From the NCBI GenBank assembly GCA_030612485.1, contig JAUWNS010000016.1, positions 1-22,450 of the forward strand: DNA of 22,450 nucleotides. Direction: 5' to 3'. Numbering within the stretch: the first letter of the stretch is position 1; each line of letters begins with the position of its first letter. The position numbers and the translations under genes were made by a program. This DNA is from Candidatus Bipolaricaulota bacterium. Its GTDB lineage: Bacteria > Bipolaricaulota > Bipolaricaulia > UBA7950 > UBA9294. The notes below the pieces were generated by a model. It saw only the letters and a list, made by a program, of their open reading frames with translations, searched no databases and was not told the DNA's origin. Below, piece after piece: positions 205-20,041 of the stretch.

Positions 205-218
205 AACCGAAATTAGAA

Positions 219-246
219 GTAGGGGCGGTTCGCGAACCGCCCCTAC
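219..246. repeat. Perfect 28-base palindrome (REP-like)
   Basis: Two 14-base arms meet at the centre TTCGCGAA with no mismatch; the outer arms read GTAGGGGCGG and CCGCCCCTAC. It could form a long GC-rich hairpin or cruciform. Short palindromes of this GTAGGGGCG type are familiar as dispersed intergenic repeats in many bacteria. There is no T-run after it, so an intrinsic terminator is unlikely. Confidence 0.85.
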
Positions 247-259
247 ACTCGAAACGACA

Positions 260-303
260 GGGAACCGCGAAAAGAACCCGTTAAATGGCATCAACCGGTT
301 CCC
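260..303. repeat. Inverted repeat with 8-base arms
   Basis: GGGAACCG (260-267) and CGGTTCCC (296-303) are perfect inverted arms around a 28-base loop. They share the GGTTC/GAACC core of the neighbouring 28-base palindrome, so this looks like a related or decayed repeat unit. No function can be assigned. Confidence 0.5.
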
Positions 304-476
304 GGTATGCTACTTCATTGGCTTCCCAGCGGTGTCAGGTCGAACGGGATCCCGATTTGATCACCGATCTCCACGAGCGAGTCGACGACCGGTCGGAAGA
401 GATCGAACCCCTATAGCAATACGGTGACGATCCACCGCGTGTGCGTCATGATCTAACCCTTCCCGCGGTCCTCCTC

Positions 477-505
477 TTGACATTTTATAAGAGTCGTGCT
501 ATGGT
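477..505 (+). promoter_or_regulatory. Sigma70-type promoter of the LacI regulator and operon
   Basis: TTGACA (477-482) and TATGGT (500-505) are separated by exactly 17 bases, close to the consensus. The predicted transcription start is near 512, just before the operator at 520-533 and the ATG at 535. This decides against a longer reading frame from GTG 496, which would begin upstream of the transcript. It probably drives at least the genes up to the terminator at 5874. Confidence 0.75.
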
Positions 506-519
506 GGGATAACGATTTC

Positions 520-533
520 GGAAAACGATTTCC
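520..533. promoter_or_regulatory. LacI-family operator, probable autoregulatory site
   Basis: GGAAAACGATTTCC is an imperfect 14-base palindrome (12 of 14 positions symmetric) with the central CG typical of LacI/GalR-family operators such as the CcpA cre site. It lies immediately downstream of the -10 element and one base before the start codon of the LacI gene, so a bound repressor would block the promoter or early elongation. I found no second good copy elsewhere in the window. Confidence 0.65.
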
Positions 534-534
534 C

Positions 535-2283: not shown

Positions 2284-2293
2284 GGAGGTACCT

Positions 2294-3958: not shown

Positions 3959-3994
3959 CAGCAGGGAGGGTTTACGAGCATGAAAGGAGGAACG

Positions 3995-5269
3995 ATGAAA
4001 CGAGTTGTGTTGTTGGTGGCGTTGCTGGCTCTAATGGTCACGACGCTTGGGGTCCTCGGATCGGCCGCCGACCTCACGTTTGTCTGTCCTGCTTGGCAGG
4101 GGGACACGGTGAAGGAGATCAAGGCGATCGTTGCCGAGTGGAACGATGCGCACCCCGATATTCAGGTCGAGATCCTCTGGCAGGCGTGGGAGAACCTGGA
4201 TGACTACCTCCTGACGAGCTTCCAGGGGGGACAGGCTCCTGACATCTTTCATGAGGACGCGGTGATGTGCTACGAGTACGGGATGCTCGGCTACGCTGCC
4301 CCGCTCAACGATTACCTGAGCGACGAGACTATTTCGGACATCCCCGCCTCCACTTGGGAAGGGGTGAGCGATGATGAGGGGACGATCTATGGGGTCCCCC
4401 TACTGCAGGAGACGCTTGTCATCTTCTACAACAAGACCCTGTTCGCCGATGCTGGGATCGCTCTACCTGCGGATGGGATGATCACTTGGGACGAACTCCG
4501 CTGCTACGCGCAGCTACTGACCAAGAGGGATGAGGCCGGCGCGGTCACCACGTGGGGGCTCCTCGCCCCGCTCGAACAACGGCTGTGGTGGTGCCTGGTC
4601 GAGCAGAACGAGGGAAACGTCCTGCAGCGCCATGACGACGGGACGTGGCACGTCGAGATCGACGAGAACGCGAGAGAGGCGATCAAGAGCTTCACCGACC
4701 TGGTGACCGTCGACCAGACCATGCCGCAGGATATCCTGAGCTACGATTTCATGAGTCTCCTGAAAGGATTCAAGGACGGGCAGTACGCCATGTTCAGCTA
4801 CGGCTGCTGGGTGCGTAGCTGGATCGTGCGGCTGACAAAGGGCGAGCTCGATTGGGGGATGCTCCAGATCAAGGGAGAGAAGAAGACCGTCACCGAGGCC
4901 GATCCACAAGCCTTGGGGATCTACGTCGACTCACCGCACAGGGATGAGGCGTTCCAGTTTGTGGAGTTCTTCACCAACACGGAGAACTCGGCGCGGATCG
5001 CTTACGCCGATTGGCTCTTCCCGGTCAGGCAGAGCGCCCTGGAGCGGCCCGAGTTTCAGAGCGAGGAGAACCAATGGAGCGTTGCATACCAGTGGCTCCC
5101 TTACGCGCAGGACGTGAAGCCGCACATGTTCGCGTTCTTCGCTTGGGAATGGCAATCGTTCCTCCCCCAGATTGAGCTGGTCATCTTGGGAAAACAGGAT
5201 CTTGAGACAGCACTAGAAGCGGCAACCACGCAGGGGAACCTATTCCTACGGCGAATGGGCCTGCAATAG
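3995..5269 (+). CDS. ABC transporter sugar-binding protein (solute-binding family 1)
   Basis: This is the extracytoplasmic binding component of a carbohydrate-uptake (CUT1-type) ABC importer, 424 residues, the normal size. The N-terminus MKRVVLLVALLALMVTTLG is a signal peptide with likely cleavage after GSA near residue 24. Family features follow: a mixed alpha/beta lobe with VKEIKAIVAEWNDAHPDIQVE, then GGQAPDIFHED and VPLLQETLVIFYNKTLF. No lipobox Cys is evident. ATG 3995 is preferred because AAAGGAGG (3983-3990) lies just before it and it gives a canonical signal peptide; ATG 3980 in the same frame, with GGAGG 10 bases upstream, is the alternative. The partner permeases lie at 6957-8659. 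Confidence 0.92.
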   Translation: MKRVVLLVALLALMVTTLGVLGSAADLTFVCPAWQGDTVKEIKAIVAEWNDAHPDIQVEILWQAWENLDDYLLTSFQGGQAPDIFHEDAVMCYEYGMLGYAAPLNDYLSDETISDIPASTWEGVSDDEGTIYGVPLLQETLVIFYNKTLFADAGIALPADGMITWDELRCYAQLLTKRDEAGAVTTWGLLAPLEQRLWWCLVEQNEGNVLQRHDDGTWHVEIDENAREAIKSFTDLVTVDQTMPQDILSYDFMSLLKGFKDGQYAMFSYGCWVRSWIVRLTKGELDWGMLQIKGEKKTVTEADPQALGIYVDSPHRDEAFQFVEFFTNTENSARIAYADWLFPVRQSALERPEFQSEENQWSVAYQWLPYAQDVKPHMFAFFAWEWQSFLPQIELVILGKQDLETALEAATTQGNLFLRRMGLQ

Positions 5270-5349: not shown

Positions 5350-5865
5350 ATGAAGAACGTTTCCAAGGTTTTACTGTGCGTATTGGTGATCGGCCTGATC
5401 GTGGTGAGCGCGTGGGGGAAAGAAGTCCCCGTACCCGCCGGAGAGGTTGTATTGACGGTATCGGGAGCGATCGCGCTGACCAATAACGGTGACGTGTTCG
5501 AGTTCGATATCGATATGCTGAAGGCACTTCCCTACGTTGCCTATCTGGTGGAGGATCCGTGGATGGGAGAACAGGCCTACGGTGGTGTAACGCTGAAGGC
5601 GATCCTTAGATACGTAGGGATTCCCGCCGGTGCTGGCACCGTCGTGTTGATCGCTTCGGATGATAAGGAAGTCCCCGTCGCAATCAGGGATGCCCTCTAC
5701 TATCCGATCCTCTTGGTCTATACCCTCGACGGTGATGACCTCCCGGCAAGCTTGGGCGGACCGGTGAAGTTGGCCTTCCCGTACGACTCCGATCCGGAGA
5801 CCATAGAGCTCTACGATGAGAACCAGTGGAACTGGTACGTCGTCAAGATCCGGGTCGACTACTAA
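5350..5865 (+). CDS. Small secreted molybdopterin-oxidoreductase-fold protein
   Basis: This is a 171-residue exported protein with a signal peptide at 1-23 and the rest resembling a short version of the sulfite-oxidase-type molybdopterin-binding domain. Recognisable stretches are LTVSGAIALTNNGDVFEFD (35-53), YGGVTLKAILRYVGI (77-91) and LGGPVKLAFPYDSD (135-148). The only Cys (C10) is in the signal peptide, so the Cys that ligates Mo in true oxidases is absent and catalysis is doubtful. AGGAGG at 5337-5342 is 7 bases before the ATG. It lies between the binding protein and a strong terminator, which suggests it is expressed with the binding protein. It could be a binding or accessory protein; the assignment is by fold resemblance. 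Confidence 0.7.
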   Translation: MKNVSKVLLCVLVIGLIVVSAWGKEVPVPAGEVVLTVSGAIALTNNGDVFEFDIDMLKALPYVAYLVEDPWMGEQAYGGVTLKAILRYVGIPAGAGTVVLIASDDKEVPVAIRDALYYPILLVYTLDGDDLPASLGGPVKLAFPYDSDPETIELYDENQWNWYVVKIRVDY

Positions 5866-5928: not shown

Positions 5929-6960
5929 ATGAAGATCGCTGAGCTCGTCGAGATCGGGAAGATCGGTTATCGCGATGTCCCGACGCCTCATCCCGGACCC
6001 GGAGCGGTGGTGGTGAAGACCCACTCCGTTGGCCTGTGCGGGACCGATGTCAAGGCCTACTTCAGAGGGCATCCCTATTTCTCGCCCCCCTGCGTCCTCG
6101 GGCACGAGTTTGCGGGGACCGTCGTCGAAATCGGAGAGGGGGTCGAGCGGTTCGAGGTCGGAGAGGGGATAGTCGCCGCACCGTACGTCGAGTGTGGAAA
6201 ATGCGACCTGTGCCGACATGGTCTGGGCGAGCTCTGCGAGCACAAGGCATTCGTCACCGGGGCACTTGCGGAGTACATCCTCCTCCCGAGTGCGATCGTG
6301 GAGCAAGCGACGTTCCGATTGGGTACGGGGGTCGATTTCGCCGTCGGTTCGCTTGCCGAGCCGCTTGCCTGCGCTCAGAATGGCGTCGAGAGAGCAGGAA
6401 TAACAGAGGGAGATACCGTCCTCGTCATCGGAGGTGGACCGATGGGGGTGATGCTCGCCCTGCTGGCAGAGACAAAAGGGGCAAAGGTCCTGTTGAGTGA
6501 GATCTCCTCCCCTCGGATCGAAGCGGCGCATCAGCTGGGTATTGCCGTCGTCTCGCCAGAGGCAGAGGATCTTGTTGAGCGGATGAGGAGCGAGTGGGGG
6601 AAGGGAGAAGCCGATCGAGTCCTCATCGCCGTTGGAAATAAATCGCTCGTCGAGGCGGGGTTCAACCTGGCCGCGGCCGGGGGGTGCGTCCTCCTCTTCG
6701 GCGGATTGCCGAAGGGAGACGAGATCTGCCTCGACGCGTTTGCCGTTCACTATCGCGAGATCGGTCTTATGGGAAGCTTCGGCTACAACCTACGTCAGTT
6801 TAAGACGGCCGTCGCCTGGTTGAACGACCATGCGCAGGTCGTGCGAAGAATTATCACTCACACCGTTCCTTTTTTCGAGCTTGAGAGAGGTTTCGAACTA
6901 GCCAAGGAAGCAAAGGGATTGAAGATCATGATCGATTTTTCTGACAGAGGGGGCACATGA
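5929..6960 (+). CDS. Zinc-dependent alcohol/polyol dehydrogenase (MDR family)
   Basis: This is a cytoplasmic NAD(P)-dependent dehydrogenase of 343 residues, related to sorbitol and threonine dehydrogenases. Catalytic zinc ligands are C37 (GLCGTD) and H59-E60 (GHE), with E144 in SLAEPLAC. The structural zinc site is complete with C89, C92, C95 and C103. The Rossmann glycine motif GGGPMG is at 168-173. AGAAGGA (5914-5920) is 8 bases before the ATG. It follows the terminator and its stop overlaps the permease ATG by four bases. The probable role is oxidation of a hydroxyl group of the imported carbohydrate or a derivative; the exact substrate cannot be read from the sequence. Confidence 0.92.
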   Translation: MKIAELVEIGKIGYRDVPTPHPGPGAVVVKTHSVGLCGTDVKAYFRGHPYFSPPCVLGHEFAGTVVEIGEGVERFEVGEGIVAAPYVECGKCDLCRHGLGELCEHKAFVTGALAEYILLPSAIVEQATFRLGTGVDFAVGSLAEPLACAQNGVERAGITEGDTVLVIGGGPMGVMLALLAETKGAKVLLSEISSPRIEAAHQLGIAVVSPEAEDLVERMRSEWGKGEADRVLIAVGNKSLVEAGFNLAAAGGCVLLFGGLPKGDEICLDAFAVHYREIGLMGSFGYNLRQFKTAVAWLNDHAQVVRRIITHTVPFFELERGFELAKEAKGLKIMIDFSDRGGT

Positions 6961-7835
6961 TGCGTAGCGTTCGTGCACCCTTCGGCGAAGAGCGACGGGC
7001 TCTCCCGTTCCTTATCCCCGCGCTTGTCGTACTGTGCGGGATCAGCCTATACCCCTTGATCCAAGGGATCTCTCGGATGTTCTACACCTATCGTGCCCTG
7101 ACACGGGAGACCGTCTTTGTTGGGTTCCAGAACATGACATCTCTCTTCCAGGATCCCCTCTTCCTGCGGGCGTTCAGCAACAGTATCATCTGGACAGTGA
7201 CGAGCGTCGGGATGCAGTTTATCCTCTCCTATTGGCTTGCCACGATGCTCAACTCTCGCTCCCTGCATTTTCGCAGGATGTTCCGCGGGATTGCCCTCAT
7301 TCCATGGGCTCTTCCCCCGGTCGTTATCTCCCTCATGTGGCGATATATCTTCTTGAACGGCGGGCCGTTGAACGCGTTCCTTCACTCTCTAGGGATGTCC
7401 CACCCGCCCAACTGGCTCACCGATCCCCAGCTCGCTCTCTGGACCTGCATCATCGCTAATATCTGGATGGGAATCCCATTCGTGACGATAATGCTCCTCG
7501 CAGGGCTGCAGACTATCGAGAAGGACACACTCGATGCTGCGGCGATCGACGGGGCGAACTACCTCCAGGCCCAGTGCAAGATCATCCTCCCAAGCATCAA
7601 GAAGGTCGTGTTGATCATCCTCACCCTGGAGACGATCTGGACGTTCAACATGTTCGACATCGTCTTCGTCCTTACGAAAGGAGGACCAGGGAACGCATCG
7701 CTCACCCTTCCGCTCTACGCCTACGAGAACGCGTTCATGTACTACCAGGCGGGCTACGGAGCTGCGATCGGGTTACTGATCCTGCTGTGCCTTCTCACCG
7801 TGGTCGTCTTCTACATTCGGGAGGTCCTCCAATGA
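6957..7835 (+). CDS. ABC transporter permease, MalF/UgpA type
   Basis: This is an inner-membrane permease of a CUT1 carbohydrate importer, 292 residues with about six hydrophobic helices (first at roughly 15-38). The EAA loop that contacts the ATPase is visible as DAAAIDGANYLQAQCKIILP (193-212). The start ATG overlaps the stop of the dehydrogenase (ATGA), indicating translational coupling. It pairs with the next gene to form the channel for the solute delivered by the binding protein at 3995-5269. No ATPase gene is present in the window. Confidence 0.95.
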   Translation: MMRSVRAPFGEERRALPFLIPALVVLCGISLYPLIQGISRMFYTYRALTRETVFVGFQNMTSLFQDPLFLRAFSNSIIWTVTSVGMQFILSYWLATMLNSRSLHFRRMFRGIALIPWALPPVVISLMWRYIFLNGGPLNAFLHSLGMSHPPNWLTDPQLALWTCIIANIWMGIPFVTIMLLAGLQTIEKDTLDAAAIDGANYLQAQCKIILPSIKKVVLIILTLETIWTFNMFDIVFVLTKGGPGNASLTLPLYAYENAFMYYQAGYGAAIGLLILLCLLTVVVFYIREVLQ

Positions 7836-8659
7836 GAATGCACCCTGTAAAAAAGGTCCTGTTACACCTGTTCGTCGTCCTGTTCATGCTCCTCCTTGCC
7901 TTTCCGATGGTCTTTCTCCTGTTCAATTCGTTGAAGACGGAACAGGGAATCGTTGCCTCCCCAATAGGGTTTCCCAGGGAAGCGACGCTTGCCAACTACC
8001 GGGAGGTCTTCACCGAGTCGAGCTTCCTCACGAACTTCAAGAACAGCAGTATCGTTGCCATGGCGACCGTCCTCCTCTCCATCATCGTCTCTACGCCGGC
8101 CGGATACGCCCTGTCGCGGTTCAAGTTCCGTGGGCGGACCATCTTTTCGATGTGGCTCCTCGCCACGCAATCCTTCCCCGGGATTATCATGGTCCTGGGG
8201 CTGTTCGCCGTGCTCAAGACCTACCACCTGTTGAATACCCTTCCGGGCCTCGTCATCATGTACACCAGTTTCAGTATGCCGTTCAGCATCTGGCTCCTCA
8301 AGGGATACTTCGACAAGATCCCAGTCGCACTGGAGGAGGCTGCACGCATCGATGGGTGCAGCCGGGCTGAATCGCTCGTCAAGATCGTCCTCCCCCTTTC
8401 AGTCCCCGGGCTACTGGCGGTAGGTACGTTCTCCCTCCTCCTTTCATGGAACGAGTTTTTCTTCGCTCTCGTAATCATGCGCGATAACGCGCACTACACA
8501 CTTCCCGTCTTCCTGGCGCGGTTCATGGGCTCGGGCGGGGTAGTGCGGTGGGGCCCGTTGAGCGCGGCGGCACTAATGGCGTGCATCCCCGTCTTGATCC
8601 TGTTCATGCTGGGGCAGAAGTACCTCGTCTCCGGCCTCACAGGTGGGGCGATCAAGTGA
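7832..8659 (+). CDS. ABC transporter permease, MalG/UgpE type
   Basis: This is the second permease of the importer, 275 residues with six predicted membrane helices (first about 10-32). The EAA loop is EEAARIDGCSRAESLVKIVL (168-187), and the C-terminus ends in the usual QKYLVSGLTGGAIK. The reading frame is open much further upstream, but ATG 7832 is chosen: it overlaps the stop of the first permease as ATGA and has GGGAGGT at 7819-7825, 6 bases away. The N-terminus from this start matches the family. Confidence 0.95.
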   Translation: MRMHPVKKVLLHLFVVLFMLLLAFPMVFLLFNSLKTEQGIVASPIGFPREATLANYREVFTESSFLTNFKNSSIVAMATVLLSIIVSTPAGYALSRFKFRGRTIFSMWLLATQSFPGIIMVLGLFAVLKTYHLLNTLPGLVIMYTSFSMPFSIWLLKGYFDKIPVALEEAARIDGCSRAESLVKIVLPLSVPGLLAVGTFSLLLSWNEFFFALVIMRDNAHYTLPVFLARFMGSGGVVRWGPLSAAALMACIPVLILFMLGQKYLVSGLTGGAIK

Positions 8660-9663
8660 TCCCTATCGGTCGATCCGGCCTGGTTGCTAACCTTGGGGCA
8701 GGAGCCGGCGAGGAGAAGATTCGTATGTTCCTCTCCCTTCTCCTCCCTAAGTTACGAGGAATTCCGCTCCTTGTAGTCCGTGGAACACCCGTTGCGGCCA
8801 TCGCTGATAGCGTGGGGATAAGCGTTGAAAACGTCGAATCACAGATCGGCTCAGGCTTCACCCGCGTGACCAGTGCGGTCGAAGCGATGCTAGATGCACG
8901 TGTGGAGAGCGTGATCGGGATTGGGGGGGACGGAACGCTTGCCGCCATCGCCAATACGATCATCGACCACGGAGGTTCGGCGCACCTCCTGGGGATCGGT
9001 GCCGGCTCCTCCAACGTGGGACCGCTCGTGACGGTGCGTGGAGAGGACCTAGAAAGGCTCGATCTTTCTCGCCTCGTGGAGAAGTCGATCCACGGGATCG
9101 AGGTGCAGGTGAAGAACGAGCCCACGGGGATCGCGTTCAACGATGTGACCTTAAGCAACCTCTTCTTTGGAACAAAAGATGGAACACGTGTCGACCTCGA
9201 CGCCCGCGCAATGCTCAATGGGGTTCGGCAGGAGACCCGACCGTGCTCGGTCTGTGGTAAGGAAACGAGGATCTACAAGAACGGCGCGCTCATGATAGAC
9301 GCGCAGGATACGCCGATCGGGCAGATCATCGCCTCCCCGATCAACGATCCGCTTTCATACAGCGGCAAGGCGATCAGCGGCCTGATCTGCTGGGGCCCAT
9401 ACCTGGGAAAGGAAGGGGTGCTCACCGCGGCAAGTGCCGTCTTGATTCGGACGCAGATCGATCAGGCGGACCTCGTGGCTGTCGAACCGCTCTTCCTTCG
9501 CCAGGTCAGCTTCGGCGACGGGGACACGATCGAGATAGTGGGATTAGAGAGCGGTGCTGTCGTCATCCTGGATGGGAACCCCACCCGTGCACTATCACCA
9601 GACGATCGTGTGACGCTTCACCTCGGACGGTCCCTCCTCCGCGCGTACAGAAGAATGCTCTAG
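8656..9663 (+). CDS. ATP-NAD kinase-like protein (COG3199/AcoX type)
   Basis: This is a 335-residue protein of the NAD kinase/diacylglycerol kinase superfamily. The signature GGDGT is at 90-94 within VIGIGGDGTLAAIAN, followed by a glycine-rich GIGAGSSNVGP (113-123) and FNDVTLSNLF (161-170). CSVC (197-200) is a possible small metal site. GTG 8656 is chosen because it overlaps the permease stop (GTGA) and leads straight into the conserved N-terminus GRSGLVANLGAGAG; longer readings run through the permease gene. It may phosphorylate NAD or another small metabolite using ATP or polyphosphate. Its place next to Ftr and Mch homologues could reflect an NADP need or phosphorylation of the pathway's own substrate. 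Confidence 0.8.
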   Translation: MIPIGRSGLVANLGAGAGEEKIRMFLSLLLPKLRGIPLLVVRGTPVAAIADSVGISVENVESQIGSGFTRVTSAVEAMLDARVESVIGIGGDGTLAAIANTIIDHGGSAHLLGIGAGSSNVGPLVTVRGEDLERLDLSRLVEKSIHGIEVQVKNEPTGIAFNDVTLSNLFFGTKDGTRVDLDARAMLNGVRQETRPCSVCGKETRIYKNGALMIDAQDTPIGQIIASPINDPLSYSGKAISGLICWGPYLGKEGVLTAASAVLIRTQIDQADLVAVEPLFLRQVSFGDGDTIEIVGLESGAVVILDGNPTRALSPDDRVTLHLGRSLLRAYRRML

Positions 9664-9679: not shown

Positions 9680-10591
9680 TTGCTCTACAAGAATATTGAG
9701 CTAGAAGAGGCGACCTGCGAGTGCACGGATGTACACCTCTGCCGCGTCCTCCTCACCGCTCTCTCAGAGCGGGTGGCGTTGCAAGAGGCGACTTACTTGT
9801 CCGGGTTCTCCGTCATCACCGCGGCCCCACTCCAGGCGTGCGTTGAGGGGAGGGTCGCTCCGACAGAGACTCTGGATGGACGCCCCGGCGTCCTTATCCA
9901 GTTCAACGCGCCGACGGAGATCGGGATGGAAGCATTTCGCAAGGCTCTACTCGACCGGCTGTACATTCTCCCTCACCTTCCAACTTGCTCACTCTTCGAC
10001 GCGACCCCTGCAGGGAGGAGCGGAGAGACGGTCGAGATCGGTGAACACCTGCGACGGTGGGGGGATGGGTTCGAGGTAAAGACGACGCTAGGGGAGCGCA
10101 AGGTGATCCGCCTCCCGATCATGACCGGGGACATGATGATCGAGAGGAGATGCCATGTCATCACCGGGATGGATGGAGTGATCGAGGTCTTCGCGCAGAA
10201 CGCGGCGTCGTGTCTCATCGCGGCGCAAGAGGCGTCCGATCGGATATTCCACGACACCCATGGCGTCGCGCTCTTCAACTACCCACTCGGCGGGATCAGC
10301 GGGGCAAAGGTGGGAGGGATCAACTATCGCGAGGAAGGAGTGACGACCAACGAGCCCTACTGTCCCACCCTGCGAAGTGAAGTGAGCGAGACGAAGATCC
10401 CGGACGGAGCCACGGCGGTTATCGAGTTCCCGCTCATCGGACTGGGGATAGAGGAGATCAAGGCAGGATTACGTGTGGCGATCGACGCATTCGCTGCAAC
10501 TCCGGGGGTGATGCGCATCACAGCCCCCTCGTTCGGGGGAGAGTGGGGGAAGCATCAGCTCTACCTTCCCGATGTAGTTAGCGAGCGATAG
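9680..10591 (+). CDS. ftr: Formylmethanofuran:H4MPT formyltransferase homologue (Ftr)
   Basis: Ftr moves a formyl group between methanofuran and N5 of tetrahydromethanopterin. This protein (303 residues; archaeal Ftr about 297) matches the family along its whole length: CRVLLTALSERVALQEA, TLDGRPGVLIQF (64-75), ALLDR and SLFDATP, NEPYCPT (224-230) and the C-terminal PGVMRITAPSFGGEWGKHQL. E249 in VIEFPLIGL aligns by eye with the glutamate (Glu245, from memory) proposed as catalytic in Methanopyrus Ftr. It starts at TTG 9680 with GGAG (9671-9674) five bases upstream. No Fwd/Fmd or FhcABC subunit is adjacent. It was probably only a few bases from the Mch gene before a repeat element inserted between them. 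A changed substrate is possible. Confidence 0.85.
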   Translation: MLYKNIELEEATCECTDVHLCRVLLTALSERVALQEATYLSGFSVITAAPLQACVEGRVAPTETLDGRPGVLIQFNAPTEIGMEAFRKALLDRLYILPHLPTCSLFDATPAGRSGETVEIGEHLRRWGDGFEVKTTLGERKVIRLPIMTGDMMIERRCHVITGMDGVIEVFAQNAASCLIAAQEASDRIFHDTHGVALFNYPLGGISGAKVGGINYREEGVTTNEPYCPTLRSEVSETKIPDGATAVIEFPLIGLGIEEIKAGLRVAIDAFAATPGVMRITAPSFGGEWGKHQLYLPDVVSER

Positions 10592-10593
10592 AT

Positions 10594-10982
10594 AATATGA
10601 TTCCTCACGTTCAAGGTGAGGGAACCTAGAGAAGGAGTCAAGAGATGAGTCTCTCACCGAAGAGCAAAGAGGGGGAGACTCGGGGACACGGAGACGCGAA
10701 GAGTGAAAACCAATATCCCTTCGCAATCTTTGCGGCTTGAGTGAGTGTAACGAACGGGCGAGAGAAAAAAGATCGTATCTCGCAAAGTCGCAAAGACGCA
10801 GAGAAGAACAGAAGACAGGAAAAATGACTGAAAACGAGATAAGAGAGATTGTCGTTGTCACTGCGGTCTCGTCTCACCGAGATAGATCTCAGCTTTGGTT
10901 TTACGTACAGGAGTATCTCGAGAGGAGTTCCTCCTATAACCATCCCTTACCTTGCCTTAAGCGTGAGGAGCCGACAATATGA
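10594..10982. mobile_element. MITE-like element with 7-base direct repeats, between ftr and mch
   Basis: AATATGA occurs at 10594-10600 and again at 10976-10982, flanking a 375-base segment (10601-10975) with no plausible gene. The segment ends are imperfect inverted repeats: 10601-10625 (TTCCTCACGTTCAAGG...) against 10945-10970 (...CCTTAAGCGTGAGGA), about 18 of 26 matching. Its left half (10601-10771) is homologous in reverse orientation to 18484-18631. The right end supplies TGAGGAG (10964-10970), the apparent ribosome site of the mch homologue, whose ATG lies in the right direct repeat. Removing the element would leave the two genes about 5 bases apart. Confidence 0.6.
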
Positions 10983-11956
10983 ACAGGCTGAACCTCGACT
11001 CGAGACAACAATCAAGCATCGCCCGGCAATGTAACGGACTTGTGAGTACGTTGATCGAACGTGCGTGGGAGTACGGCCTTGTTGTTCAGACCCTTCCGTG
11101 TGGGGCCACGCTGATCGATGCTGGTGTCAATGTTGTCGGGTCATTTGCGGCGGGGTTGAGCTTGATCGAGATCTGCCACGGCGGGCTCGCTAACGCCTCG
11201 CTCGGTCTCACCGATATCGGAGGGTTCCTCCTCCCGCAGGTCACTGTCGAATCTTTTCGCCCCACCATCTCTACGTACGGATTGCAGGCCTCCTACCCGT
11301 TGAGCACGGATGAGCCAGGGGTTCGTCTCTCCGGCCCGATCCGCTTGTACCTCGATGGAGCGGTAGTAATGGAGAATCCAGCCGCGATCGCGGTCATCGA
11401 GTCCGATCACCTCCTTGATGACGAATTTGCACTCGCGCTCGCCGAGCGAAGCAATCTCTCCCCACAATCTCTAACCCTGATCGTCGTTCCGGGGTGGAGT
11501 GTGGTTGGAGCGGTACAGATTGCGGGGCGGGTGAACGAAAGCGTCATCTTCACCCTGGAAGAGAGCTTGAAAGTTGATTCACGCAAGGTCAAACATATGA
11601 TCGGACAGGCGCCTGTCTGTCCGGTAAGCCAGATCGATTCTCCTGAAGAGAAGCGTCCCTATCCCGATGATTTCATCCACTACGCTGGGGAGGTTGTCCT
11701 CACCCTCCTTGCCTCCCCGGAGGATGATCTGGAGCGCCTTGCACACCTGCTCTCCTTTGCATCGACCTCGATCTACGGGAGCCTCTTTCACGACGTCTTG
11801 GCCGTGGCAGGCGGGATCTTCGAGGCAATCCCTGATCTCATCCACATCAACAAGCCTGCACAGGTCACTATTGAGGATCTTTCCACCGGCCGAGCGGCCC
11901 ATGCCGGGGTGAAGGACGTCGCGCTTTTGACTTCCCTCCTAGGAGGAGCACGATGA
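10979..11956 (+). CDS. mch: Methenyl-H4MPT cyclohydrolase homologue (Mch), divergent
   Basis: Mch hydrolyses methenyl-tetrahydromethanopterin to N5-formyl-H4MPT. This 325-residue protein matches the family in GATLIDAGVNVVGSFAAGL (42-60), an SGP motif (118-120), AVIESDHLLDDEF (138-150), VVPGWSVVGAVQIAGRVNES (169-188) and the C-terminal VTIEDLSTGRAAHAG (296-310). R184-x-x-E187 fits the Arg/Glu pair of archaeal Mch active sites. The lysine expected before the SGP motif is missing: the first lysine of the protein is K198. The start ATG has TGAGGAG 8 bases upstream, supplied by the inserted element. Its stop overlaps the amidohydrolase ATG by four bases. It may act on H4MPT derivatives or on another cyclic amidine; the divergence favours caution. 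Confidence 0.82.
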   Translation: MNRLNLDSRQQSSIARQCNGLVSTLIERAWEYGLVVQTLPCGATLIDAGVNVVGSFAAGLSLIEICHGGLANASLGLTDIGGFLLPQVTVESFRPTISTYGLQASYPLSTDEPGVRLSGPIRLYLDGAVVMENPAAIAVIESDHLLDDEFALALAERSNLSPQSLTLIVVPGWSVVGAVQIAGRVNESVIFTLEESLKVDSRKVKHMIGQAPVCPVSQIDSPEEKRPYPDDFIHYAGEVVLTLLASPEDDLERLAHLLSFASTSIYGSLFHDVLAVAGGIFEAIPDLIHINKPAQVTIEDLSTGRAAHAGVKDVALLTSLLGGAR

Positions 11957-13308
11957 AGACAAATGACACAGGGAAGCAAATGATCGTCATCGAGAAAATC
12001 TCTACCCTTGTGCGTGATGAAACGCGCGTGGAACACGATGTGGACCTCTTGATCGAGGGAAATCGTATCGAGAAGATCGGCCGCGTCACTCCGCAGGAGA
12101 TCGGTCCCAGAGCCACCGTCCTCAACGGGTGTGGGCGGATCGTCATCCCAGGGCTTGTCAACGCGCATACGCACCTCTACCAGTCGATGCTCAAGGGACG
12201 GCGCGACGACCTCTCGCTCGTCTCGTGGTGTGAAGATGTCACCTTCCCCTTCGTACGTAATGTCCTCGATCGGCTGAAAAGCGGTAGGAGCGATGAGATC
12301 GGTTACCTCTGGTCGATCCTCGGGACGACCGAGATGATCAGAAACGGGATCACTTCGTTCGTCGACATGGACATGAACTTGCGCGGAATTCCGCAGGCGT
12401 GGTGCGACATCGGTATCCGCGGTATCGCCGCGATGAGCATGGTCGATCAGTGGGTTCCGGACGACCTAATGGTTGGCTTAGCACAGATACAGGAGAATAC
12501 CCTGGGGCTTATCGAAAACTGGCATCAAACCCCGCGGGAGGATCCACTAGTACAGGTCTTCCTCGGGCCGTCCGCCCCGTTCACCTGCAGTGAAAAACTC
12601 CTTCATTGGATCATGGAGACCGCTGAGAAATACGACTTGGGGATCCAGACACACGTCTCGGAGACGGTCTGGGAGGTGGAACAGTCCCTCAAGACCACCG
12701 GAAGACGCCCCCTGGAGTACTTGGAGTCGATCGGTTTTCTCTCCCGTCCGATTCTGGCTGTCCACGGTGTACACCTGAACAACGAAGAGATCGAGCTTGC
12801 CAAGGAGCATTCGGTGACCGTGGTCTACAACCCCAAGAGCAACATGAAACTCGGAAGCGGGATCGCCCCGATCGTGCAGATGCGCCGGGTTGGAGTCGAG
12901 GTCGCACTAGGGACCGACGGGGCTGCATCCAACGACCTTCTCGATCTGTTCGAGGAGATGCGGACCGGGGTTCTCCTCCAGAAGGTTGCGACAAGGGATC
13001 CGACGGCTCTCGGTGCGCGGGAGATCTTCCGTAGCGCCACCGCGGTGGGAGCGGCAGCCTGCCGGATCGATGCGGGTACTCTCGACGAGGGAAGGCTTGC
13101 CGACCTCGTCCTGATCGATCCCTCCGAGCCCCACCTGTTCAACCTGGGCGATGCAATCGTCCCCTCCCTTGTCTACTGTGCGAAAGGGAGCGATGTCGAG
13201 ACGGTGATCATCAACGGGCGGGTAGTAATGCGTGATCGAGTTATCGTGACAATCGATGAGAAAGCCCTTCTCAAGGAGGCTAAGAAAGTGGGTGAAACAT
13301 ATGCATAG
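11953..13308 (+). CDS. ATZ/TRZ-type amidohydrolase (SAH/MTA deaminase-like)
   Basis: This is a cytoplasmic metal-dependent hydrolase or deaminase of 451 residues in the amidohydrolase superfamily. The metal and catalytic residues are intact: H72 and H74 (NAHTHL), H234 and E237 (THVSET), H271 (VHGVHL) and D322 in LGTDGAASND. This pattern is that of the mononuclear deaminases acting on guanine, cytosine, triazines and S-adenosylhomocysteine/methylthioadenosine. It is not the carbamylated-lysine pattern of FhcA/FwdA. The ATG overlaps the Mch stop, with AGGAGG 6 bases upstream. It could remove an amino or formyl-type group from the imported heterocycle. Because it directly follows Ftr and Mch it might stand in for the missing formylmethanofuran hydrolase, but I rate that lower. 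Confidence 0.88.
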   Translation: MKTNDTGKQMIVIEKISTLVRDETRVEHDVDLLIEGNRIEKIGRVTPQEIGPRATVLNGCGRIVIPGLVNAHTHLYQSMLKGRRDDLSLVSWCEDVTFPFVRNVLDRLKSGRSDEIGYLWSILGTTEMIRNGITSFVDMDMNLRGIPQAWCDIGIRGIAAMSMVDQWVPDDLMVGLAQIQENTLGLIENWHQTPREDPLVQVFLGPSAPFTCSEKLLHWIMETAEKYDLGIQTHVSETVWEVEQSLKTTGRRPLEYLESIGFLSRPILAVHGVHLNNEEIELAKEHSVTVVYNPKSNMKLGSGIAPIVQMRRVGVEVALGTDGAASNDLLDLFEEMRTGVLLQKVATRDPTALGAREIFRSATAVGAAACRIDAGTLDEGRLADLVLIDPSEPHLFNLGDAIVPSLVYCAKGSDVETVIINGRVVMRDRVIVTIDEKALLKEAKKVGETYA

Positions 13309-14719
13309 CGATATCAAGGAAGAGCTTGTCGCGATCGTCGGCGAGCGGTACGTCACCGCTTCTATGGTGGATAGGATCTGCTATTCGCGTGATTGCGGCC
13401 CGGATAAGGCGGGGATCCCGGATGTGGTGGTCCGTCCTGGATCGACGGATGAGGTGGCCGCGATCGTTCGTCTCGCGAACGAGGCAAAGAGACCGATCTA
13501 TACGCGGGGCCGCGGAACGACCTTCCTCGGGAGCGGTGTCAAGGATGGGGTGATCCTCATCGAGACGACCCGTATGAATCGAATAGAGCAAGTCGATCTT
13601 CAGGCCGGCTCCGTCACTGCGCAGGCAGGAGCGATCTGGCACGGGATCGATCAACACCTGCACAAGCTGGGACGAGAGCTCGCTGTTCCCGGCGGCGGTG
13701 GACTCTTCTCGTGCACCATAGGCGGGACTGTCGCGGTCAACGCCATTCCACACGGAGCGACGGAGTACGGGATGACAGCGGACCACGTCCTTGCCCTTGA
13801 GGTGGTCCTTCCCGACGGGAGGGTGATCCAGACCGGGTCAGCGGCGAATCCGAATTCGGAACCAATCGAACGAAACGCGAACGGGCCCGATCTTGCCGGC
13901 CTGTTCATGGGGTCCTATGGGATCCTTGGGATCATCACCAAGGTGACCTACCGCATCCGACCGATCCCGGAGACAGAACTCTTCGCGTTCTATGCCTTCG
14001 ATGACTACCAGAACGCGATCGATGCCGCGTGCGGCATTCAGATGCGCGAGGCAGCGACGTTCATCGTCGGTATGTTCGGCGGGCCCAAGCCCGCAGGAGT
14101 GGAGGGTGATGGGTTCCTTCACCTGATCGTCCGTGATCGCGCCACCGCTGCCCGTGAGCGACTCCGTGAGGCCGAAGCAATCTGCGAGGCGCATCGCGGA
14201 TGCCCCACTTCGGCGGAGGGAACGCGTCACTACTGGGAGGAGCACATGTACTCCTGGCTGCGGAACACCGCTCCTGGTCCGTACTACAGCGATCGACCGT
14301 ACTTCTGTCCCGAGGTGGCCGGTTTCGTCTCCACTCAGGGGTTGAAGAAGGCGGTCCGCCTCTTTCGTGACTTACGGGAAGAGCGTGACGCGGAATTCAC
14401 CAAATACGGGATCCGCGTGAAGGGGTTGGATGCGTACTTCTCCCGTAACGGAGCGTACCTGTGGATCGACACCCTCTACGATGAGCGGCGGGACGACGCG
14501 TGGGAATATGGGATGAAGTTACGTGGCGACATCGCGGAGATCATGTTCACAGAGGGTGCGATGAGCCCGGGCGGCCTGGGGGCGGGAGTCTCCCCTTATA
14601 TCATGCCCAAGCTTGGTGAGACCTTCGAACTGTTCAAGAAGCTCAAGAGTGCGATGGATCCGAATGGTATCTTGAACCCCGACCTTCTCTTTCCCACAGG
14701 AGTGAAACATGAAGCTTGA
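13301..14719 (+). CDS. FAD-linked oxidase, GlcD/D-lactate dehydrogenase type
   Basis: This is a 472-residue flavoprotein of the FAD-binding type 4 family. Residues about 40-220 form the PCMH FAD-binding domain (VVVRPGSTDEVAAIVRLAN, AVPGGGGLFSCTIGGTVAVN, DLAGLFMGSYGILGIIT), and the C-terminal cap ends DPNGILNPDLLFPTG, as in glycolate oxidase GlcD. It probably oxidises a 2-hydroxyacid or a similar substrate and passes electrons to the Fe-S protein encoded next. ATG 13301 overlaps the amidohydrolase stop by 8 bases; GTG 13292 in frame is an alternative start. The frame is open further upstream into the amidohydrolase gene, but that part does not resemble the family. There is no GlcE gene. Confidence 0.9.
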   Translation: MHSDIKEELVAIVGERYVTASMVDRICYSRDCGPDKAGIPDVVVRPGSTDEVAAIVRLANEAKRPIYTRGRGTTFLGSGVKDGVILIETTRMNRIEQVDLQAGSVTAQAGAIWHGIDQHLHKLGRELAVPGGGGLFSCTIGGTVAVNAIPHGATEYGMTADHVLALEVVLPDGRVIQTGSAANPNSEPIERNANGPDLAGLFMGSYGILGIITKVTYRIRPIPETELFAFYAFDDYQNAIDAACGIQMREAATFIVGMFGGPKPAGVEGDGFLHLIVRDRATAARERLREAEAICEAHRGCPTSAEGTRHYWEEHMYSWLRNTAPGPYYSDRPYFCPEVAGFVSTQGLKKAVRLFRDLREERDAEFTKYGIRVKGLDAYFSRNGAYLWIDTLYDERRDDAWEYGMKLRGDIAEIMFTEGAMSPGGLGAGVSPYIMPKLGETFELFKKLKSAMDPNGILNPDLLFPTGVKHEA

Positions 14720-15851
14720 GAAATACAGAGATCAGATCTACAGTTGTCTCCGCTGTGCATTCTGCTTTGATCAAGAGCAGGGGGAGGGAAAGAAGATCTG
14801 CCCGCCGTACGCGACGTACGGGCTCGAATCCTATGGGGCGAGGGGAAAGCTCGCCATTGCGCGCGCCTTGATCGACAAGGAGATCGAATATAGCAACGAA
14901 GTCGTAGAGCGCATCTTCTCCTGCACCGACTGCGAGGCCTGTCAAGAGCAGTGCTTCAAGTATCTTCCGCTCGCTGATATCTATGCAGCGATGAAGGAGG
15001 ATATGGCAGACCAAGGCCTGTTGCCATCCGGTTTTGCCGATGTGCTCGCACAGGTGGATGAGTTCGGAAACCCTTACCGCAAGTTGCAGGAGAAGCGGTT
15101 TGCTTGGCTTCCCAATAAGGAGCGGGTCGACAAGGAGGCAGATGTACTGTTCTTTGTTGGGTGCACCACCGCCTACCTACGGCGCGGGATCGCGCGTGGC
15201 GCGTATCAGGTTCTCGACAAGTTGGGGATCGATTTTACACTTCTCGGGGACGAGCGATGTTGCGGCCATCCCTATATTGCAGCGGGAAAGATGGATCAGG
15301 CAAGAAAGACGACCGCGGCCAATCTGGAAGCGATCGAGCACTTTGGGATAAAAACGATCGTCTTCGCCTGCCCGGGGTGCCTGCGCACCTTCAAGGAAGA
15401 TATGCCGCGGCTCCTTGGAAAGCCTCTCCCGTTTGAGACCATGCACTTGAGTGAGTTTCTTACTGATGAGCTCGCGAAACACCCGGTTCAGTTGAAGAAG
15501 ACATCCCGCGTCGTCACCTATCACGATCCCTGCAATCTTGGGCGGCACATGGGAATCTACGAACCACCGCGGGATTTAATTGAGGCGATCCCCGGGGTCA
15601 GGCTGCTGGAGATGCCTCGCAACCGCGACAATTCCTTCTGTTGCGGAAACGGTGGGTTCGTCCGCTACGACTATGAAGATATGTCCGTGGAGAGTGAGCT
15701 CGATCGGTTTGCCGAGGCGGAAGCGACTGGAGCGGACGCGATCGTGAGCGCGTGCCCGGCATGTCAGAGTGGGTTGCTCGATGCCAAGAGCAAGGCAGGA
15801 TCGAAGATGGAAGTCCTTGACATCCTTGAACTTTTTGCCAAAGCGCTCTAA
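14709..15851 (+). CDS. Fe-S oxidoreductase, GlcF/CCG-domain type
   Basis: This is the 380-residue electron-transfer partner of the FAD oxidase. The N-terminus carries two [4Fe-4S] clusters: C13, C16, C19 and C31, then C72, C75, C78 and C82. Two cysteine-rich CCG domains follow, with VLFFVGCTT...ERCCGHP and YHDPCNLGRH...SFCCGNGG, as in GlcF and heterodisulfide-reductase-like proteins. Its start overlaps the oxidase stop by 11 bases, so the two are translationally coupled. The electron acceptor is unknown; quinone or a soluble carrier are the usual options. No membrane segment is seen, so any membrane link would need another protein. Confidence 0.92.
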   Translation: MKLEKYRDQIYSCLRCAFCFDQEQGEGKKICPPYATYGLESYGARGKLAIARALIDKEIEYSNEVVERIFSCTDCEACQEQCFKYLPLADIYAAMKEDMADQGLLPSGFADVLAQVDEFGNPYRKLQEKRFAWLPNKERVDKEADVLFFVGCTTAYLRRGIARGAYQVLDKLGIDFTLLGDERCCGHPYIAAGKMDQARKTTAANLEAIEHFGIKTIVFACPGCLRTFKEDMPRLLGKPLPFETMHLSEFLTDELAKHPVQLKKTSRVVTYHDPCNLGRHMGIYEPPRDLIEAIPGVRLLEMPRNRDNSFCCGNGGFVRYDYEDMSVESELDRFAEAEATGADAIVSACPACQSGLLDAKSKAGSKMEVLDILELFAKAL

Positions 15852-15867: not shown

Positions 15868-17172
15868 ATGGACGATCTAAAGAAGCGTCGAGATGATGCG
15901 GCAAACATGTGGGAGACGACAGGTCTCTCCGGGGTTAAGGTCTACCCGATCCGCGCCGCTGTGGAAGCGATGATCAATCAAGGGTATGCGATGGAGAAGG
16001 CGTCCACCCTCCTTATTCAGGCAGAGAAGGACTATCACGAGGATAATTACGATAAGCTCCTCGTTTCGATCGCCCTCATCAATAAGGAGATCCACCTTGC
16101 GCTGGAAACTAAGAAGAACCTCGGGCCAACAACCTTTGAGGAGATGAGAGCTTCCCTCCCCGGCCCGGTAGAAGGGATTGCCGGCACGATCACACCTAAA
16201 GAGTACCTGGATCGGGTGAAGGGAGGATGGGTAGGGAAGTGCATAGGCACGGCACTCGGAGACCCGGTGGAGGGGTGGACGAGCGAGATGATCCGCTCCC
16301 GCTACGGGACGGTCACCGACTACCTCGTCCCTCCAAAGGTGGAGAACGACGACACAGCCTACCCGATTCTCATCCTGCATGCCCTTGATGAGTACGGTCC
16401 TTCCTTCACGAGCGAGCAGCTCGCCCTGGAGTGGGTAGGGCACCTTCCCTATGCCTTCACCGCGGAGCAGGTCGCCCTGGAGAACCTCAAGGCCGGGATG
16501 ATGCCTCCGGAGAGCGGCCGGTTTCGCAACCCGTGCAGCGAATGGATCGGCGCGCAGATGCGCGGGGAGATCCATGGTCTCTTAACGCCGCTCCGTCCCG
16601 ACCTTGCCGCGGAGCTTGCCTTCCGCGATGCAATTATCTCGCACCGCCGCGAAGGGGTCTACGGTGAGATCTACTGCGCCGCCCTCATCAGCATCGCCTT
16701 CTCAGGCTGTCCGATCGAGGAGGCCTTGCGCCGCGCGCTAGCGTTTGTCCCGTTGGAGAGCCGTTTTTATCAGGTGGTTGAGGAGACCATCCACTGGTGC
16801 GAGAAGATAGGGGATTGGGAAGGGGTGCTAGTGAAGATCGAGCAGGATCTGGGGCACTACCACTGGATTCACACTTTCCCCAATATCGCCACCGTCATCA
16901 CCGGCCTCCTGCTTGGGGAAGGGGACTTCGGGCGATCGCTCACCACGACCCTGATGTGCGGATTTGACACCGATTGCTCGGCCGGGCAGGTGGGTGGTCT
17001 TCTCGGCACCCTGCTTGGATACGAACGCATCCCGGATAAGTGGAAGGACCCCGTAGGTAAGGAGTTCGAGAGCTACGTGATCGGGTTCGAGAAGATGAGC
17101 TTCACTAAACTGAGCGAATGGACCGTACACTGGGGGCAACGAATCGTCGGGCTGGTTGTACGCGATAGCTGA
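15868..17172 (+). CDS. ADP-ribosylglycohydrolase-family protein with N-terminal extension
   Basis: This 434-residue protein contains an ADP-ribosylglycohydrolase (ARH/DraG) fold from about residue 108. The dimagnesium motifs are present: ENDDTAY (159-165) near the front and GFDTDCSAGQ (365-374) near the end. Residues 1-105 are an extra helical, charged region not part of the fold. GAGG (15859-15862) is 5 bases before ATG 15868. ARH relatives next to PfkB kinases and ABC importers are often suspected to hydrolyse the N-glycosidic bond of nucleoside-like compounds instead of ADP-ribosyl proteins. That suits its place here beside a ribokinase-type gene, and it hints at an N-glycoside substrate for the operon. 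Confidence 0.88.
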   Translation: MDDLKKRRDDAANMWETTGLSGVKVYPIRAAVEAMINQGYAMEKASTLLIQAEKDYHEDNYDKLLVSIALINKEIHLALETKKNLGPTTFEEMRASLPGPVEGIAGTITPKEYLDRVKGGWVGKCIGTALGDPVEGWTSEMIRSRYGTVTDYLVPPKVENDDTAYPILILHALDEYGPSFTSEQLALEWVGHLPYAFTAEQVALENLKAGMMPPESGRFRNPCSEWIGAQMRGEIHGLLTPLRPDLAAELAFRDAIISHRREGVYGEIYCAALISIAFSGCPIEEALRRALAFVPLESRFYQVVEETIHWCEKIGDWEGVLVKIEQDLGHYHWIHTFPNIATVITGLLLGEGDFGRSLTTTLMCGFDTDCSAGQVGGLLGTLLGYERIPDKWKDPVGKEFESYVIGFEKMSFTKLSEWTVHWGQRIVGLVVRDS

Positions 17173-17202: not shown

Positions 17203-18102
17203 GTGATCAACGTATTGGGAAGCATCAACATGGACCTCGTCACCGAGGTCCCGCATCTGCCGCGACCCGGGGAGACAGTCCTTGGCCACCGATTCGGTCG
17301 TTACCCCGGAGGGAAGGGAGCGAACCAGGCCGTAGCGGCAGCCCGTCTCGGAGCACAGGTCGCCTTCTACGGGAAGGTCGGCACCGATCCCTTTGGTGAG
17401 GATCTCCTCCGTGGCCTTGCAAAGAACGGGATCGATATTAACGCTGTGGAGAGAGAGCGGAGCGCCTCCTCCGGGATCGCTAGTATCTGGGTGAATGAGG
17501 ACGGTGAGAACGCCATCGCGTACGCACCGGGAGCGAATGCCCTGGTAGATTCTGCCTACGTGGATCGAATCCTTCCTGCGATCGCGCGCGCCGAGGTCCT
17601 TCTCTTGCAGCTTGAGGTTCCCCTTGTAACGATCGATCACCTGCTGCGACGGTTGCCCGCAAGACGCCCCCTGGTGATTCTGGATCCCGCTCCCGCCCAG
17701 GACCTCTCGTCCCTCTTTCTTGAGCGTGTCGATATACTGACCCCGAACCGGGGGGAACTCATCGTCTTGACCGAGGAGGAGGGACTGGAGGAGGAGGCGC
17801 ACAAGCTCCTGGAGCGTGGAGTCGGTCGGGTGATCTGTAAGGACGGAAGTGATGGTGCAGTTCTCGTCGAGGCCGATCGCTACCTGCGCTTTCCAGCATT
17901 CACTGTCTCCCCGGTCGACACTACCGGGGCGGGTGACGCCTTTAACGGCGCGTTAGCCGCCGCCCTTTCAGAGGGACGCCCTGTGGAAGATGCAGTGCGG
18001 TGGGCCGCTGCTGCTGGTGCGTTGGCGACTACCAAGCGAGGGGCGCAGCCCTCCCTTCCCACGCGGCAAGCGGTGGAGGATCTGCTGAACAAGGCCGCGT
18101 GA
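17203..18102 (+). CDS. Ribokinase-type PfkB sugar kinase
   Basis: This is a 299-residue cytoplasmic kinase of the PfkB family that phosphorylates ribose or a related sugar with ATP. It shows the N-terminal substrate motif GGKGANQAVAAARLG (36-50) and the C-terminal signature DTTGAGDAFNG (239-249), with D245 as the catalytic base. It begins at GTG 17203; a GGAAGG/AGGTGA stretch about 10-20 bases upstream is a modest ribosome site. It follows the glycohydrolase by 30 bases and is the last gene of the cluster. Together they would release a sugar and phosphorylate it, and the aldolase at 1537 could then cleave a later intermediate. The family resembles RbsK, but specificity for ribose is not proven. 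Confidence 0.9.
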   Translation: MINVLGSINMDLVTEVPHLPRPGETVLGHRFGRYPGGKGANQAVAAARLGAQVAFYGKVGTDPFGEDLLRGLAKNGIDINAVERERSASSGIASIWVNEDGENAIAYAPGANALVDSAYVDRILPAIARAEVLLLQLEVPLVTIDHLLRRLPARRPLVILDPAPAQDLSSLFLERVDILTPNRGELIVLTEEEGLEEEAHKLLERGVGRVICKDGSDGAVLVEADRYLRFPAFTVSPVDTTGAGDAFNGALAAALSEGRPVEDAVRWAAAAGALATTKRGAQPSLPTRQAVEDLLNKAA

Positions 18103-18133
18103 GGAGGAAACGTTCAGATCCTTCGTCTGTCAT

Positions 18134-18197
18134 CGCATGGGACGGATGCCGGTTGCGAAGCAAGACCGGAGGTCGAAGAGGATTCACCACGAAGGGC
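18134..18197 (-). repeat. Right copy of the ~64-base inverted repeat flanking the cluster
   Basis: This is the reverse complement of 141-204 with about five mismatches. It lies 31 bases after the ribokinase stop. Within it, TTGC-GAA-GCAA can form a small hairpin, but there is no T-run, so it is not an obvious terminator. The 18191-18212 tail (GAAGGGCACGAAGGACACGA) is a short GAAGG(G/A)CAC tandem typical of dispersed intergenic repeats. Confidence 0.85.
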
Positions 18198-18239
18198 ACG
18201 AAGGACACGAAGAATGGAATCCGATGACCAAATCCCAAA

Positions 18240-18640
18240 CGACAAAGAGCAAGAAAAAAGCTTGTGCCTCTCGCAAAGACGCAAAGAGCGCAAAGAAAAG
18301 CGTTACGTAGGGAAAAGAACTAGAACCGAAGGCATCTCTTGGTGATCTTGGTGCCGCGACATCGGAGGATCGGGAAATTGAGTGATTGTAGTTGCCAATC
18401 ATTCAATCACTAAATCTCTCAATGATTCAATCGCTGAGTCTTTCGTGGTGAAACACTTCTGTATCTTTGTGAGAGGCACAAGCTTTTTCTCTCGCCCGCT
18501 CGCTACGCTTACTCAAGCCGCAAAGGTGTCGCGACACCAAGAGCGCCAGGAAATATTGGTTTTCGCTCTTCGCATCTCCGTATTCCTGAGTCTTTCTCTG
18601 GGTTACCGTGCCTTAGGCGTGAGCAACCGTGGGATTAAGT
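18240..18640. repeat. Composite dispersed repeat, related to the 10601-10975 element
   Basis: This gene-free spacer is a mosaic of repeats. Bases 18255-18279 and 18464-18488 are a 25-base inverted pair with one mismatch (AAAAAGCTTGTGCCTCTC...). GGTGTCGCGACACC (18525-18538) is a perfect palindrome, with a related copy at 18347-18363. Bases 18396-18440 hold short ATTCAATC repeats. CGCAAAGACGCAAAGAGCGC (18272-18291) is a familiar dispersed word. Bases 18484-18631 match the reverse complement of 10601-10771 with a few indels. Open frames here are short, lack ribosome sites and overlap repeat words. Confidence 0.7.
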
Positions 18641-20024: not shown

Positions 20025-20041
20025 TACAACTAGCCTCCTTC

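Follow-up and report, generated by a model that had tools for sequence, protein, structure and literature searches.

Tetrahydromethanopterin (H4MPT), the main one-carbon (C1) coenzyme of methanogens, is built of a pterin, an arylamine, a polyol, an alpha-linked ribose, a phosphate and a 2-hydroxyglutarate. The characterised Ftr and Mch enzymes work on H4MPT-type carriers, and in methylotrophy and methanogenesis they belong, together with Fhc/Fwd and Mtd, to an H4MPT-methanofuran module. Here we analysed a 22,450-nucleotide stretch from a Candidatus Bipolaricaulota bacterium (contig JAUWNS010000016.1, positions 1 to 22,450; referred to as the window), which shares with that module the Ftr and Mch families and their catalytic residues and differs from it in setting them in an uptake operon. 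On balance, we favour the reading that this operon serves to take in and break down a ribose-bearing pterin in reduced form from dead archaea, with H4MPT or one of its close archaeal relatives as the likeliest candidate. We propose more tentatively that it forms a complete anaerobic-bacterial pathway feeding on H4MPT, with extracellular pterin-specific capture, C1 removal and stepwise dismantling of all parts. The proposed pathway is read from its genes, from which we infer the substrate, the direction and each reaction; gene order, family membership, conservation of catalytic residues, the predicted fold of a PruR-like protein, the absence of markers in relatives and co-occurrence are observed. 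All structural and functional names rest on sequence or models, and the labels L, G and P denote loci, genomes and proteins, respectively.

The Ftr-Mch pair and its operon

The initial annotation had named neighbouring Ftr-family and Mch-family proteins, and profile searches placed both in these families, with scores above the Pfam gathering thresholds. The Ftr-family protein, our candidate for C1 stripping (9680-10591, + strand, 303 aa), matched PF02741 with 88.1 bits (cut-off 25) and PF01913 with 78.9 bits (cut-off 27) over its full length, and its four PDB sequence matches were all Ftr (1m5s, 1m5h, 1ftr and 6s6y_D, the last presumably from a methylotroph). Against the NCBIfam equivalog TIGR03119 it scored 177.8, not reaching the cut-off of 292.6, which places it in the family but not among predicted functional equivalents. 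Its Glu249 aligns with Glu245 of Methanopyrus kandleri Ftr (position 245 by count), which we take to be the key catalytic glutamate. The equivalent position was glutamate in 79 of 79 rows of the Ftr clade and in 28 of the 29 remaining rows, the last having a gap; this count divides the rows at P0078, and the other 29 include four clade fragments (P0079-P0082). A tree was built from 64 rows, namely three PDB chains and 61 of the 108 rows available for Ftr (the window protein and P0001-P0107). In it, a branch (95/80) separated the 37 clade rows from the archaeal and methylotroph chains, the Ftr of this type forming a clade of its own; the tree carried a long-branch warning that included P0083. 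Two more Ftr groups (P0084-P0093) lay on the far side of that branch, also separate from those chains. Viral contigs scanned with the Ftr alignment gave 22 stretches fitting the pattern, none of which was confirmed.

The predicted Mch-family cyclohydrolase (10979-11956, + strand, 325 aa) scored 170.6 bits with PF02289 over almost all of its length (cut-off 25) and 158.2 with the equivalog TIGR03120 (cut-off 228.8), and its four PDB sequence matches (1qlm, 4fio, 4gvq and 4gvr) were all Mch. Since both proteins stay below their NCBIfam equivalog cut-offs, we regard them as divergent family members. Glu187 of the Mch aligns with the glutamate at which 4gvq and 4gvr differ; we take these entries to be the Archaeoglobus fulgidus enzyme and its E186Q variant, and Arg183 and Glu186 to be its catalytic residues. 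Glu187 is kept in 39 of 39 rows and Arg184 in all 38 rows that have a residue there. In 34 of the 37 clade rows covering the site, one residue is missing after Gln103, in what is presumably an active-site segment of Mch (canonical QKAGW/QYAGW).

Both genes lie in one + strand run of window open reading frames (ORFs), from a LacI-type repressor (starting at 535) to a ribokinase (ending at 18102). Intergenic gaps are at most 80 bases, many of them negative, the sole exception with the start codons as chosen being the 387 bases between Ftr and Mch. As this gap (10592-10978) contains motifs like GCAAAGTCGCAAAGACGCAGAG, it is likely an inserted repeat element; judged by tblastn ends, the two genes are separated by fewer than 10 bases in L001 and L002. 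The ATP-binding cassette (ABC) importer, LacI regulator, aldolase, dehydrogenase, glycohydrolase and sugar kinase reported earlier for the cluster were all located in the window. Absent from the earlier list were GlcD and GlcF and two secreted proteins, a metallophosphoesterase (2294-3958) and a PruR-like protein (5350-5865). The first gene of the operon (535-1536, from an internal ATG; named by eye) encodes the repressor, and LacI matches directly precede the aldolase gene in L008, L009, L010, L013, L014 and L023 as well.

A search of 5.8 billion proteins (E<=1e-5; for Mch, the 7995 candidates with most shared words were scored) yielded 107 relatives of Ftr and, among the scored candidates, 38 of Mch. 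Ftr was found in 15 loci of genome contigs, of which one is fragmentary and lies at the end of its contig; the labels were Bipolaricaulota, Bipolaricaulis, Acetothermia, Atribacteria, Neomarinimicrobiota, Hadesarchaea and uncultured bacteria. Such labels are fallible: G002 (Neomarinimicrobiota) and G006 (Atribacteria) group in the phylum of G014, which we take as Bipolaricaulota because most of its labelled members are. Of the 15 loci, 13 also contain Mch, in 12 cases directly beside Ftr; it is missing from L012 and L013. Because Ftr occurs in 15 loci and its neighbours recur in conserved order, a chance association is excluded.

Proposed pterin capture and candidate enzymes for the parts of H4MPT

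The importer genes of the operon encode a solute-binding protein (3980-5269; PF01547, 111 bits) of the SBP_bac_1 type, not the nucleoside (BMP) type, and two permeases (6957-7835 and 7832-8659, ORFs named by eye). The gene adjoining that of the solute-binding protein encodes the PruR-like protein (PF00174; about 170 aa, with a signal-like N-terminus), whose predicted SUOX-type fold was closest to PruR periplasmic pterin-binding proteins, other SUOX-fold proteins being nearly as close. It resembles the PruR of PruR-DcpA signalling in size, N-terminus and predicted fold. It has no conserved cysteine, and W71, W160 and W162 are invariant (8 of 8); these features may correspond to the missing Mo-ligating cysteine and the conserved tryptophan of PruR (compare Trp160 and Tyr104 of the Agrobacterium tumefaciens protein). 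It differs in sitting among ABC importer genes, and no DcpA- or DTB-like gene was found among the window genes examined. On the strength of the model, we regard it as a candidate pterin-binding part of the importer. L006 holds, at 3-3069, an additional group of importer genes (for a solute-binding protein, two permeases and a PruR-like protein) upstream of the main set, which there has no PruR-like gene.

Because a PruR-type protein lies in the uptake genes, the two H4MPT enzymes keep their catalytic residues and fitting enzymes accompany them, we read the imported compound as the pterin itself. The initial annotation had postulated an undescribed pathway tied to an imported compound, and to that extent we agree with it; its pterin as an internal carrier, or a purine-like ring as the target, gives way to the pterin as the import. 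An undescribed role is likely, since the operon that holds the pair is one for uptake and catabolism rather than a C1 module, and since synthesis markers are missing in relatives.

The import could also be a different pterin glycoside or precursor (dephospho-H4MPT of methylotrophs, sarcinapterin or pterin ribosides), with H4MPT as one of several substrates or unused, which we consider improbable. The H4MPT-type carriers of the characterised Ftr and Mch argue against it (with haloarchaeal Mch as an assumed exception), as does the phospho-hydroxyglutarate tail, which is best matched by GlcDF and the phosphoesterase. In its favour are the Mch pocket altered by the deletion and the PruR of A. tumefaciens, which prefers tetrahydromonapterin (PMC13259868) and has a site that accommodates smaller pterins.

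Returning to H4MPT, the sequences suggest that operon enzymes fit each of its parts, i.e. ribose, phosphate, hydroxy-acid, polyol and ring. In the first step, the calcineurin-like metallophosphoesterase (signal-like N-terminal segment by eye; PF00149 and PF16371 above cut-off; DxH, GD and GNH motifs) would open the phosphodiester between ribose-5-phosphate and 2-hydroxyglutarate. The solute-binding and PruR-like proteins would then hand the pterin to the importer. Third, Mch and Ftr would hydrolyse the N5,N10-methenyl bridge to the N5-formyl form and strip the formyl group, to water or some acceptor.

In the fourth step, the alpha-ribofuranosyl link would be cut by a protein of the ADP-ribosylglycohydrolase (ARH) fold, a candidate alpha-riboside hydrolase (15868-17172; PF03747, 168 bits, residues 119-390, with an additional N-terminal part). 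The ribose would be phosphorylated by the ribokinase RbsK (17203-18102), which scored 315.5 bits with TIGR02152, over the cut-off of 299.65, and 289.6 with PRK11142, under its cut-off of 341. ARH1 and ARH3 cut alpha-ribosyl links, e.g. in ADP-ribose-ADP-ribose, and leave beta-NAD uncut (PMC9738213; for further ARH background, see PMC7050489). The ARH model of the window protein (pLDDT 83.1) gave Foldseek matches to MJ1187, DraG and ARH3, and the protein carries DDT and DTD motifs.

Fifth, three proteins could split the polyol into triose phosphate and an arylacetaldehyde: a zinc alcohol/polyol dehydrogenase (5929-6960; PF08240, PF00107), a COG3199/AcoX-like putative kinase (8656-9663) and a class I aldolase of the DeoC/LacD/FBA-I type (1537-2283; PF01791, 117 bits). 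For the kinase-like protein, COG3199 is the family name that we assume; it has a GGDGT motif and matches PF00781 and PF01513 slightly under cut-off, and its PDB sequence search was empty up to E 0.1. The closest PDB entries to the aldolase were MJ0400, LsrF and an archaeal fructose-bisphosphate aldolase, and the lysine within IKAYF presumably fits the Schiff-base position. In relatives, the operon is flanked by a second amidohydrolase and two aldehyde:ferredoxin oxidoreductase (AOR) family proteins, and this adjacent AOR pair could oxidise the arylacetaldehyde.

Sixth, a GlcD-like FAD 2-hydroxyacid dehydrogenase (13301-14719; PF01565, PF02913) and its GlcF-like Fe-S partner (14709-15851; PF02754, PF13183) would oxidise 2-hydroxyglutarate; the closest named PDB entries to GlcD were D-lactate dehydrogenase, LctD, glycolate oxidase and D-2-hydroxyglutarate dehydrogenase. 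In the last step, a TRZ/ATZ-type amidohydrolase (11953-13308; PF01979, 210 bits), a candidate pterin deaminase, would deaminate the pterin ring. Its best named PDB match was a methylthioadenosine/S-adenosylhomocysteine (MTA/SAH) deaminase, with 8-oxoguanine deaminase lower in the list, and pterin deaminases belong to the group of these two enzymes. The ring could be opened, in some relatives, by two proteins encoded beside the operon, a dihydroorotate-dehydrogenase/PreA-like protein that has 4Fe-4S motifs (dihydroorotate dehydrogenase was its best model, sub-cut-off) and a dihydropyrimidinase (above cut-off in L013, slightly under in L016). Both protein types recall reductive pyrimidine degradation; unlike in that pathway, they are combined here with a protein of deaminase type and a putative pterin importer, and the window is without the two genes. 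Further upstream, up to the contig ends, G008, G009 and G014 carry genes for IOR and an ADP-forming acyl-CoA ligase-like protein, and G010, as far as its contig extends, the ligase-like gene only.

Degradation of a purine or modified nucleoside, in which Ftr and Mch would have been retooled for a formyl-level carbon of the purine ring, has to be weighed against these assignments, and we judge it unlikely. The amidohydrolase matches named above point in its direction, as do XDH-like genes upstream in G014, the BMP-like importers (by eye) of the Atribacteria locus L005 and an operon of G016 (L043, 9352-17509). L043 encodes a LacI (71% identical over 325 aa), a ribokinase (69%) and an ARH protein (34%) beside a BMP-like importer seen by eye, and is likely a nucleoside catabolic relative; by eye, importers of this type were found only in G016 and in the L005 variant. 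Operons of the ARH + PfkB nucleoside type, among which we count yegTUV of Escherichia coli on presumed gene identities, thus share ARH and ribokinase with the window, to which G016 adds a similar LacI. L043 differs in having no match to Ftr, Mch, GlcDF, the phosphoesterase or the PruR-like protein. The predicted PruR-like fold and the catalytic residues retained in both H4MPT enzymes speak against a purine substrate. A plain nucleoside would require few of the operon and flanking enzymes, and the phosphoesterase, GlcDF, the dehydrogenase with the aldolase, and the AOR pair would be superfluous for it. Common nucleosides are moreover beta-linked, and the ARH1 and ARH3 specificity described in PMC9738213 spares beta-NAD. 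Two other coenzymes were ranked lower as substrates on their structures: F420 lacks both a ribose and an exocyclic amine, and the alpha-ribazole of cobamides needs neither Ftr nor Mch.

Co-occurrence and C1 markers in the host genomes

COG3199, amidohydrolase and ARH genes, which the initial annotation had proposed to look for beside the pair, are recurrent neighbours of it. In the phylum of G014, where the Ftr clade is present in 13 of 100 genomes, a COG3199 match was found in all 13 Ftr-bearing genomes vs none of the 87 others; for ARH, the figures were 12 of 13 vs 3 of 87. Among these three, G021 and G025 are not clean cases of ARH without Ftr, because their operon reaches the contig end, and were kept in the count; the third is G016 with its other operon. 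In the phylum of G005, 1 of 50 genomes has the Ftr clade. We then compared 17 genomes (the 15 plus G021 and G025, G016 being left out), with matches counted on the available stretches: the amidohydrolase was matched in 14, GlcD in 13, COG3199, ARH and the first AOR in 10 each, the second AOR in 8, and the phosphoesterase, solute-binding protein, PruR-like protein, dehydrogenase and each permease in 7 apiece. Many misses are contig ends, and true differences occur in G005 and G012. Eight genomes have loci extending at least 3 kb upstream of Ftr; seven of them carry the importer genes and the PruR-like gene, G005 being the one without.

The lack of Fwd/Fhc, Mtd and H4MPT biosynthesis genes beside the pair, reported earlier, holds within the window. 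We searched for these markers with curated cut-offs in the draft genomes of the 15 relatives (metagenome bins of unstated completeness, a set from which the window's own genome was absent), and no complete C1 module was found in any of them. RFAP synthase catalyses the first committed step of H4MPT synthesis (PMC6787355). In contrast to the methylotrophy and methanogenesis module, RFAP synthase, FwdA/FhcA and MfnB were above cut-off in none of the 15 genomes, and Mtd in one. For RFAP synthase there was one sub-threshold TIGR00144 match (G005, 18.6 vs 113.5 bits), and the best FwdA/FhcA score with TIGR03121 was 40.1 bits vs 392.75. At E 0.001, TIGR03121 matched in 15 of 15 genomes and also in 11 of 14 control genomes; because these matches were mostly short and of the general-amidohydrolase kind, FwdA/FhcA was counted as above cut-off in none of the 15. 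FTHFS and the FolD domain PF00763 were each present in 13 of 15 genomes, and since three markers are missing from all 15, incompleteness is an unlikely cause. The hosts would thus seem to lack the known routes to both H4MPT and methanofuran.

These counts bear on two further explanations. Import of intact H4MPT as a C1 carrier would agree with a PruR-like protein among the importer genes and with two H4MPT enzymes lacking synthesis markers; it is very improbable, as the known C1 route cannot be completed with the FwdA/FhcA and Mtd counts above, and ARH, RbsK, GlcDF, the aldolase and the deaminase would destroy the molecule. Ftr and Mch might instead use tetrahydrofolate or another carrier, in a C1 route disposing of a formyl group from the imported compound. 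FTHFS in most hosts fits this idea, as does haloarchaeal Mch, assumed to be folate-dependent (PMC8305020). We think it quite improbable, because FolD, itself a methenyl-tetrahydrofolate cyclohydrolase, is already present in 13 of the 15 genomes, and because this route accounts neither for the PruR-like protein nor for the way in which ARH and COG3199 co-occur with the pair.

Three further observations bear on catabolism of an imported pterin. The window LacI and ribokinase have close relatives in the seemingly nucleoside operon of L043, L013 operates, if at all, without Mch, and the Atribacteria locus L005 shares with the window only Ftr, Mch and the amidohydrolase, combined there with BMP-like importers and other oxidases.

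We found no report of H4MPT degradation, catabolism, salvage or uptake in the open-access papers searched, subscription journals being mostly outside the search. Incomplete H4MPT gene sets occur in a range of bacteria and archaea, a distribution interpreted as pointing to an ancient pathway that many lineages have lost (PMC5020050); the operon offers a further reason for such scattered sets. If catabolism of an imported pterin is correct, Ftr and Mch genes in metagenomes alone are no evidence of methanogenesis or methylotrophy, a consumer of dead archaeal biomass can be named, and the enzymes could be useful for dissecting or assaying H4MPT. The COG3199 protein and the ARH sub-family gain a testable function.

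Variant loci and neighbouring genes

Around Ftr, the Atribacteria variant (L005 and L022) carries two amidohydrolases, a DAO-type and an NAD/FAD oxidoreductase, and two copies of Mch, one of which, by eye, does not have the deletion; BMP-like ABC importers and E1 alpha/beta-like subunits were also named there by eye. In L012 (labelled Hadesarchaea), which has no Mch, a clade-type Ftr lies next to DUF2193 and a PfkB-like kinase, and the genome carries Mtd, FTHFS and FolD on a different contig.

Immediately 3' of the window ribokinase gene, short direct repeats (CACGAAGGGCACGAAGGACACGAAG) occupy 18103-18250. Beyond them, outside the operon and on the minus strand, two genes were discerned by eye (19086-20168 and 20042-22351), one for an outer-membrane-barrel-like protein and one for a large secreted protein with a C39-peptidase-like region.

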